Shown in pieces: positions 24,336-25,369 of a stretch of 64,000 nt of DNA. The notes below the pieces were generated by a model. That model was not told the origin of the DNA and made no database searches. It saw nothing but the letters and a program-made list of their open reading frames with translations. Positions within the stretch are counted from its first letter, which is position 1. Each line of letters begins with the position of its first letter. The stretch lies in the NCBI GenBank assembly GCA_902618205.1, contig CACMZL010000001.1, positions 62,001-126,000 on the forward strand. The letters run 5' to 3'. The translations under genes were made by a program, and so were the position numbers. Source of the DNA: an uncultured Pelagibacteraceae bacterium (GTDB taxonomy: Bacteria; Pseudomonadota; Alphaproteobacteria; Pelagibacterales; Pelagibacteraceae).

Positions 24336-25289
24336 TTATATTTTGATTTTATTTAATGCATTGTTTTTAAATATATTTGCCTCTCTAATATATCTTCTAA
24401 CCATTTGTGTTGTTTTGTGACCTGTCATAGCCATTATGCTCCGCTCATCAGCGCCTGAATCAGCAGCTACTGTTGCAAAACCCGACCTTAAACTATGACC
24501 TGCAAAATTTTTGTTTTCGATACCTGCTAATTTTAAATATTCTTTCATTAATAAAACTACAGATTGATCAGTTAATCTTTTATCTGTTAATGATAAACCT
24601 TTAGAAAATCTTCTAAAAATAGGTCCAGACTTAATTTTAGAAATTTCTAACCATTTTTTTAGATTTGTAACAGGACAGTAAATTTCATTATCGAAGTAGG
24701 GTATTCCTTTAGTCATTCCTTCGCCAAATTGGTCAGTTTTTGATCTTTTAATAGTGATTTTTATACCCTCTGGAACAAACTCTAAATCCTCATGATCAAT
24801 TGAAATGAGCTCCGTTCTTCTAAAGCCTCCTCCAAAGCCAACTAAAATTATTGATTTATCTCTATGTTTTTTTACTTTCTCAGTTTTTTGTTCATCTATT
24901 ACATTAATAATTGATTTTAAATGATTGATTAATATTGGTTTTTTACCTTTCTGAATACTTCCTTTGACTCTTCTTATTCCCATTAAATTTTCAACGATGA
25001 TTGGATGTTTTGTATCTAGATAATGCCCTTTCAATTTGTGAACCATGCCTATTGATACTAATCTTCGTCTTAAAGTACTTATTTTTGAATTTTTAGAGAG
25101 ATGGGTTAGGTATAAAGAGACTATTTTTGGCTCTGTCGGCAAACAGTCTAATCCATGCTTAGCGCAAAAAGCACCAAAGTCTTTAAAGTCGGATTTATAG
25201 GCTCTTAAAGTATTATTTGCTTTTGAGCTTTTAAGGTTATTTAAAGTTGCCTCATGAAGCGATTTTAGGTCTGTTGTCAGCTCATTCAT
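24336..25289 (-). CDS. Tyrosine recombinase, Cre-like in size and N-terminal pattern
   Basis: GFRRTEL (Arg), AGHSLRSGFA (HxxR), GHKTT, RRYIRE (Tyr); N-terminal Y..DF..F..FC....L..LP..P..V..YL..L. Confidence 0.9.
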   Translation of the reverse strand: MNELTTDLKSLHEATLNNLKSSKANNTLRAYKSDFKDFGAFCAKHGLDCLPTEPKIVSLYLTHLSKNSKISTLRRRLVSIGMVHKLKGHYLDTKHPIIVENLMGIRRVKGSIQKGKKPILINHLKSIINVIDEQKTEKVKKHRDKSIILVGFGGGFRRTELISIDHEDLEFVPEGIKITIKRSKTDQFGEGMTKGIPYFDNEIYCPVTNLKKWLEISKIKSGPIFRRFSKGLSLTDKRLTDQSVVLLMKEYLKLAGIENKNFAGHSLRSGFATVAADSGADERSIMAMTGHKTTQMVRRYIREANIFKNNALNKIKI

Positions 25290-25293
25290 ATAA

Positions 25294-25326
25294 TTACTAT
25301 TGATAACAATTAATTATCGATAGTAA
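25294..25326. promoter_or_regulatory. 33-bp imperfect palindrome, candidate recombinase core site or operator
   Basis: TTACTATTGATAA-CAATTAA-TTATCGATAGTAA: 13-bp arms matching at 12/13, 7-bp spacer, ends 4 bp from the recombinase ATG. Confidence 0.7.
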
Positions 25327-25369
25327 TATAACATTAGCAAATTAATGTCAAATAAAATAAATTAAAAAA

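Follow-up and report, generated by a model that had tools for sequence, protein, structure and literature searches.

A proposed single-recombinase dif/Xer-type chromosome dimer resolution system in Pelagibacteraceae (SAR11)

What does a Cre-like tyrosine recombinase do on a SAR11 chromosome when a lox-like palindrome lies directly in front of its gene? The preliminary description of this locus, which is part of the 64-kb stretch of DNA analyzed as a whole (the window), took the two for a stand-alone Cre/lox-like module. We propose, with a probability of roughly 90%, that gene and palindrome together serve to resolve chromosome dimers in SAR11, as a dif/Xer-type system with a single recombinase. 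Pelagibacter ubique was stated to have no dif/Xer system in the survey of Carnoy and Roten, 2009 (PMC2731167), and the present data argue otherwise. Beyond that survey, we found no link between SAR11, dif, and Xer in the literature searched.

The recombinase is encoded by a complete ORF and combines the catalytic domain PF00589 with an N-terminal SAM-like domain, PF02899 (Pfam). Its catalytic set, R157-K184-H265-R268-H291-Y300, is complete and unchanged across an alignment with five distant homologs, which confirms the R...HxxR...Y set first read from the sequence. Of 297 family genomes, 230 carry an ortholog, with rare exceptions as a single copy; among good-quality family genomes, 112 of 128 have the gene and 16 are without it. 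In 8 of 11 closed Pelagibacteraceae genomes it is the sole PF00589 protein, and the other three hold one more. The family hence has a conserved chromosomal tyrosine recombinase with a complete catalytic set, as a dif/Xer system requires.

TABLE 1 Features of the recombinase locus and the basis of their assignment (window coordinates)
Feature	Position	Strand	Basis
Tyrosine recombinase of 317 aa, Cre-like, proposed as the only Xer-type (dif) recombinase in Pelagibacteraceae	24336-25289	-	Domains, catalytic residues, distribution, fold
Palindromic core site of 33 bp (13-7-13), proposed as dif of SAR11	25294-25326		Conservation, copy number, terminus position
Gene-proximal arm TTACTATTGATAA (gene strand TTATCAATAGTAA), putative recombinase binding	25294-25306		Sequence, arm conservation
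Asymmetric 7-bp center CAATTAA (gene strand TTAATTG), putative strand exchange	25307-25313		Conservation
Distal arm TTATCGATAGTAA, putative recombinase binding	25314-25326		Sequence, arm conservation
Candidate -10 region (TATATT/TATTAC), shares up to 4 bp with the distal arm	25323-25330	-	Sequence reading
TTGACA -35 box of recombinase promoter, starts 25 bp upstream of site	25346-25351	-	TTGAC kept in 63/63

We rejected the palindrome by itself as evidence, since such repeats are too common in this DNA: a 1.2-Mb relative contains 21 inverted repeats of the 13-7-13 type that have no more than one mismatch, compared with 5 to 9 in Markov-1 random sequence. It is the conservation of the site that is decisive. 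The core site pattern (at most one mismatch) has a match in 290 of 397 family genomes, in nearly all of them a single one, and a reversed-pattern control in these genomes gave only a handful of matches. The preliminary description had reported a palindrome 4 bp upstream of the start codon with arms differing once, which is correct, and had staked its claim on the conservation of this palindrome upstream of orthologous recombinases. The claim survived: the palindrome accompanies the homologs across the family and, in 71 of 72 locus records (a few of them from the same genome), lies at the recombinase start, 0 to 8 bp upstream and usually 4 or 5. In two loci, the site overlaps the called start by 2 bp. 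Among 63 distinct sites, the GATAA/TTATC core is invariant, and the outer pairs covary through compensatory changes in the arms, with, for example, an A-T pair in 48 sites and T-A in 15. The center, with the family consensus TTAATKG on the gene strand, is strongly conserved as well (1.81 bits per column). A decayed or unrelated phage integrase next to a coincidental palindrome would account for the best PHROG matches of the recombinase, which are generic integrases, and for the abundance of 13-7-13 palindromes in this DNA. It would leave unexplained why the catalytic residues are intact, why gene and site are conserved together family-wide, and why the arms change in compensation, and we consider it hardly credible. 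A second, perfect 13-7-13 inverted repeat is present at positions 2266 to 2298 of the window; its sequence is unrelated to the dif-like site.

The search for a second copy, suggested in the preliminary description, found no further 33-bp site in the window's own genome (a 1.38-Mb assembly in 28 contigs) and essentially one site per genome in the family. Extra 18-mer matches in three genomes have no palindromic arms and were rejected as second sites. Because there is no second genomic site, the inversion or excision of the gene's own promoter that had been envisaged is not supported. All ten good-quality genomes of the same genus that were listed as lacking the gene also lack the site. A single assembly gap spanning both would produce this pattern, and such gaps are the probable cause. 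Like a dif-type site, the SAR11 site is about 30 bp long and non-coding, has inverted arms around a center of 6 to 8 bp, and is present once per chromosome.

The position of the site on the chromosome agrees with this comparison. In a closed genome that was read fully (G003), the detrended cumulative GC skew reaches its maximum in the 674-kb bin, the same 1-kb bin that contains the site (at 674,671); in three others sampled every 60 to 73 kb (G009, G035, and G040), the maximum is within the interval holding the site. The site is hence at the replication terminus in all four closed genomes examined by skew, as in a dif/Xer system. It also lies nearly opposite parB in 11 of 11 closed genomes, at a separation of 0.46 to 0.498 of the genome. 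Inside the 64-kb window, the raw skew has its maximum at 36 to 37 kb, not at the site's 25.3 kb. FtsK-gamma, which a dif/Xer system is expected to have as its partner, is present in 17 of 18 genomes. The KOPS-like bias of GGGNAGGG (10 versus 2) is only suggestive. We propose the dif-like role because the gene encodes the sole Xer-type recombinase of SAR11 and its site is at the replication terminus.

The recombinase is not an ordinary XerC or XerD. It scores 63.2 and 71.7 bits with the XerC and XerD equivalog models TIGR02224 and TIGR02225, below the cut-offs of 335.15 and 329.6, and 44 bits with the XerS equivalog (NF003462, PRK05084), for which 267 are needed. None of the Pelagibacteraceae genomes tested has a match of XerC/XerD grade, and the recombinase reaches about 65 to 87 bits there. 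In a sister family of the same order (f159), a XerD/XerC pair scores about 320 and 250 bits, and 50 of 53 genomes match the XerD model, most of them with two strong matches. In the tree, the SAR11 recombinase group is split from XerC/XerD at 100/100, and plasmid-borne recombinases are placed beside it. The system thus seems to have replaced XerC/XerD-dif in Pelagibacteraceae. A fold search with a structure model of moderate quality (pLDDT 80, pTM 0.60) returned Cre or Cre-derived structures as its 32 top matches (best E-value 1.3e-12, TM about 0.6), followed by XerH and XerA. The resemblance to Cre noted from the sequence therefore extends to the predicted fold, as expected of a Cre/lox-type recombinase, and the simple lox-like core site beside the gene is borne out by the 13-7-13 geometry; the label "Cre/lox-like" fits the mechanism.

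Most of the nearest relatives outside SAR11 are plasmid-borne recombinases. Among the closest are the integrase of the Alicyclobacillus plasmid pAACI01 (44% identity) and plasmid site-specific integrases of Paenibacillus, Sporosarcina, Hymenobacter, and Protochlamydia. A sizable share of the distant homologs, including several plasmid-type relatives, have the palindrome GATAA-N6/7-TTATC upstream, as in SAR11, whereas several homologs, that of pAACI01 among them, show none in the scanned stretch. The SAR11 system was likely recruited from a plasmid-type module. Is it still a mobile Cre/lox-type module, left by a plasmid or phage, that inverts or excises the DNA flanked by copies of its site? 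Largely plasmid-borne relatives, some of them with a similar upstream palindrome, and the Cre-like fold would suit such an element. However, the gene is fixed and single-copy, the family genomes have essentially one site each, and every closed genome tested has it at the terminus. A mobile module is therefore very unlikely, and the stand-alone view of the locus is disfavored with it. On a separate note, nine viral contigs, mostly of high GC content, carry a relative of the recombinase and a nearby TTCCGATAA-N6/7-TTATCGGAA, which is upstream of that relative where checked.

The site lies in the promoter region of the gene. All 63 distinct host sites have a TTGAC -35 box 25 to 26 bp upstream, and therefore the promoter overlaps the site. 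This overlap, seen in all loci, is what one would expect if the palindrome were only an operator through which the recombinase, or another dimeric protein, represses the gene, with the true recombination site elsewhere. An operator is not expected to have a center as strongly conserved as this one, to be located at the terminus, or to occur in phage DNA without the recombinase gene on the contig, and no other candidate recombination site is known. We regard the operator explanation as improbable. Autoregulation as such, which the preliminary description had allowed for, is a different matter: the promoter overlap stands, and judged from the sequence it is plausible that the recombinase of the proposed dimer resolution system represses its own gene through the site.

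The SAR11 site is also present on viral contigs that lack the recombinase gene. The phage sites come in two forms, A (TTACTAACGATAA-N-TTATCAATAGTAA) and B (TTCCGATAA-N-TTATCGGAA), often in tandem, and the form A pattern had 35 matches versus 0 for the reversed pattern. Such dif-like sites lie near terL, often as tandems, in the viral loci L169 (at about 34320), L170 (about 35830), L171 (about 35380), and L444 (Greip), and also occur in related IMG/VR viral loci, for example, L085, L095, L096, L106, L107, and L190. Near terL, form A scores 25 of 26 in HTVC100P, 24 in HTVC035P and Greip, and 21 in HTVC106P and HTVC024P; in 611 background windows, a score of at least 21 was reached once and one of at least 24 never. 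The phage site is not universal, with scores of 18 to 20 in HTVC034P, HTVC203P, HTVC204P, Lederberg, Skadi-4, and HTVC010P. HTVC028P, which has its own annotated integrase, scores 17 of 26, as does a phage of another host.

Several SAR11 phages thus combine dif-like sites near terL with the lack of an annotated integrase. Integrase status here is that of the deposited annotation and refers to the phages for which the whole feature table was covered, HTVC100P, HTVC035P, HTVC106P, HTVC010P, HTVC024P, Lederberg, HTVC203P, HTVC204P, HTVC028P, and Venkman. For Greip, HTVC034P, and Skadi-4, the analysis covered the region near terL, and for the IMG/VR contigs, similarity to phage and host proteins. 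Freshwater phages related to HTVC010P have been called lytic since no integrase was found (PMC6811365). The dif-like sites suggest that some phages may integrate in a Xer-dependent manner. We go no further than this hypothesis because no prophage was seen at the host site and most phage-site centers differ from the host center. The tandem phage pattern matched only three genome contigs, none of them from SAR11, and no host-grade site was found around the phage terminases in 6 of 7 terminase-bearing family genomes. When viral contigs were scanned by pattern for close relatives of the recombinase, only one locus was confirmed, with a partial match, and the searched literature did not bring pelagiphage, integrase, and dif together. 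The window's genome contains a probable prophage elsewhere, with an HTVC010P-like terminase (contig C1, 267490 to 268710) and, about 9 kb from it, a weak PF00589 match (277635 to 278021).

Single-recombinase systems have been described in other bacteria. XerH/difH of Helicobacter and Campylobacter and XerS/difSL of streptococci and lactococci likewise pair one recombinase with a dif-like site that is close to its gene or adjoins it (PMC5357621). XerS and XerH have about 354 to 362 aa and imperfect arms, and difSL has a center of 11 bp (PMC5357621), whereas the SAR11 system has a 317-aa protein, nearly perfect arms, and a 7-bp center. XerH ranks after Cre as a match for the SAR11 recombinase in a comparison of folds alone. 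The dif/XerL system of the Legionellales also has a single recombinase that earlier homology surveys overlooked, long uninterrupted inverted arms, and a mobile element carrying a dif mimic (PMC9765430). Compared by description, the two systems differ in the nucleophile, Y387 in XerL and Y300 in the SAR11 recombinase, and in their layout, since dif and xerL of L. pneumophila are over 400 kb apart and the SAR11 site abuts the gene. A Coxiella plasmid carries xerL. P1 Cre/loxP, the source of the best fold matches, shares with the SAR11 pair the 13-bp arms, a short asymmetric center, and the arrangement of the locus, with lox adjoining the cre region as the SAR11 site adjoins the recombinase gene. 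The loxP center is 8 bp rather than 7, identity to Cre is about 16 to 19% in structural alignments, and P1 is a plasmid prophage, whereas the SAR11 pair is chromosomal and at the terminus. With XerCD/dif, the SAR11 system has in common the proposed role, the terminus position, and FtsK-gamma; it differs in using one recombinase instead of two, and in the tree this recombinase branches apart from XerC/XerD.

In the mechanism we envisage, one recombinase protomer would sit on each of the two 13-bp arms. If a chromosome dimer arises through homologous recombination, its two site copies would pair in a synapse at the division septum, presumably aided by FtsK translocation, and the dimer would be split by strand exchange within the asymmetric 7-bp center. 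The same protomers would cover the -10 region of the promoter and probably repress their own gene. That a Cre-like pair performs natural dimer resolution is plausible because engineered Cre-loxP at dif replaces XerCD-dif in E. coli, where it resolves dimers and needs FtsK translocation (PMC2680272).

SAR11 bacteria are a dominant group in the surface ocean and among the most abundant in the sea. If our proposal is correct, the gap of the missing SAR11 dif/Xer system would close, and a Cre/lox-type pair would have taken over a core job of chromosome maintenance from XerC/XerD, a swap already engineered in E. coli. Genetic tools for SAR11 could then also use a native site, and there would be a concrete, testable attachment-site hypothesis for abundant pelagiphages.
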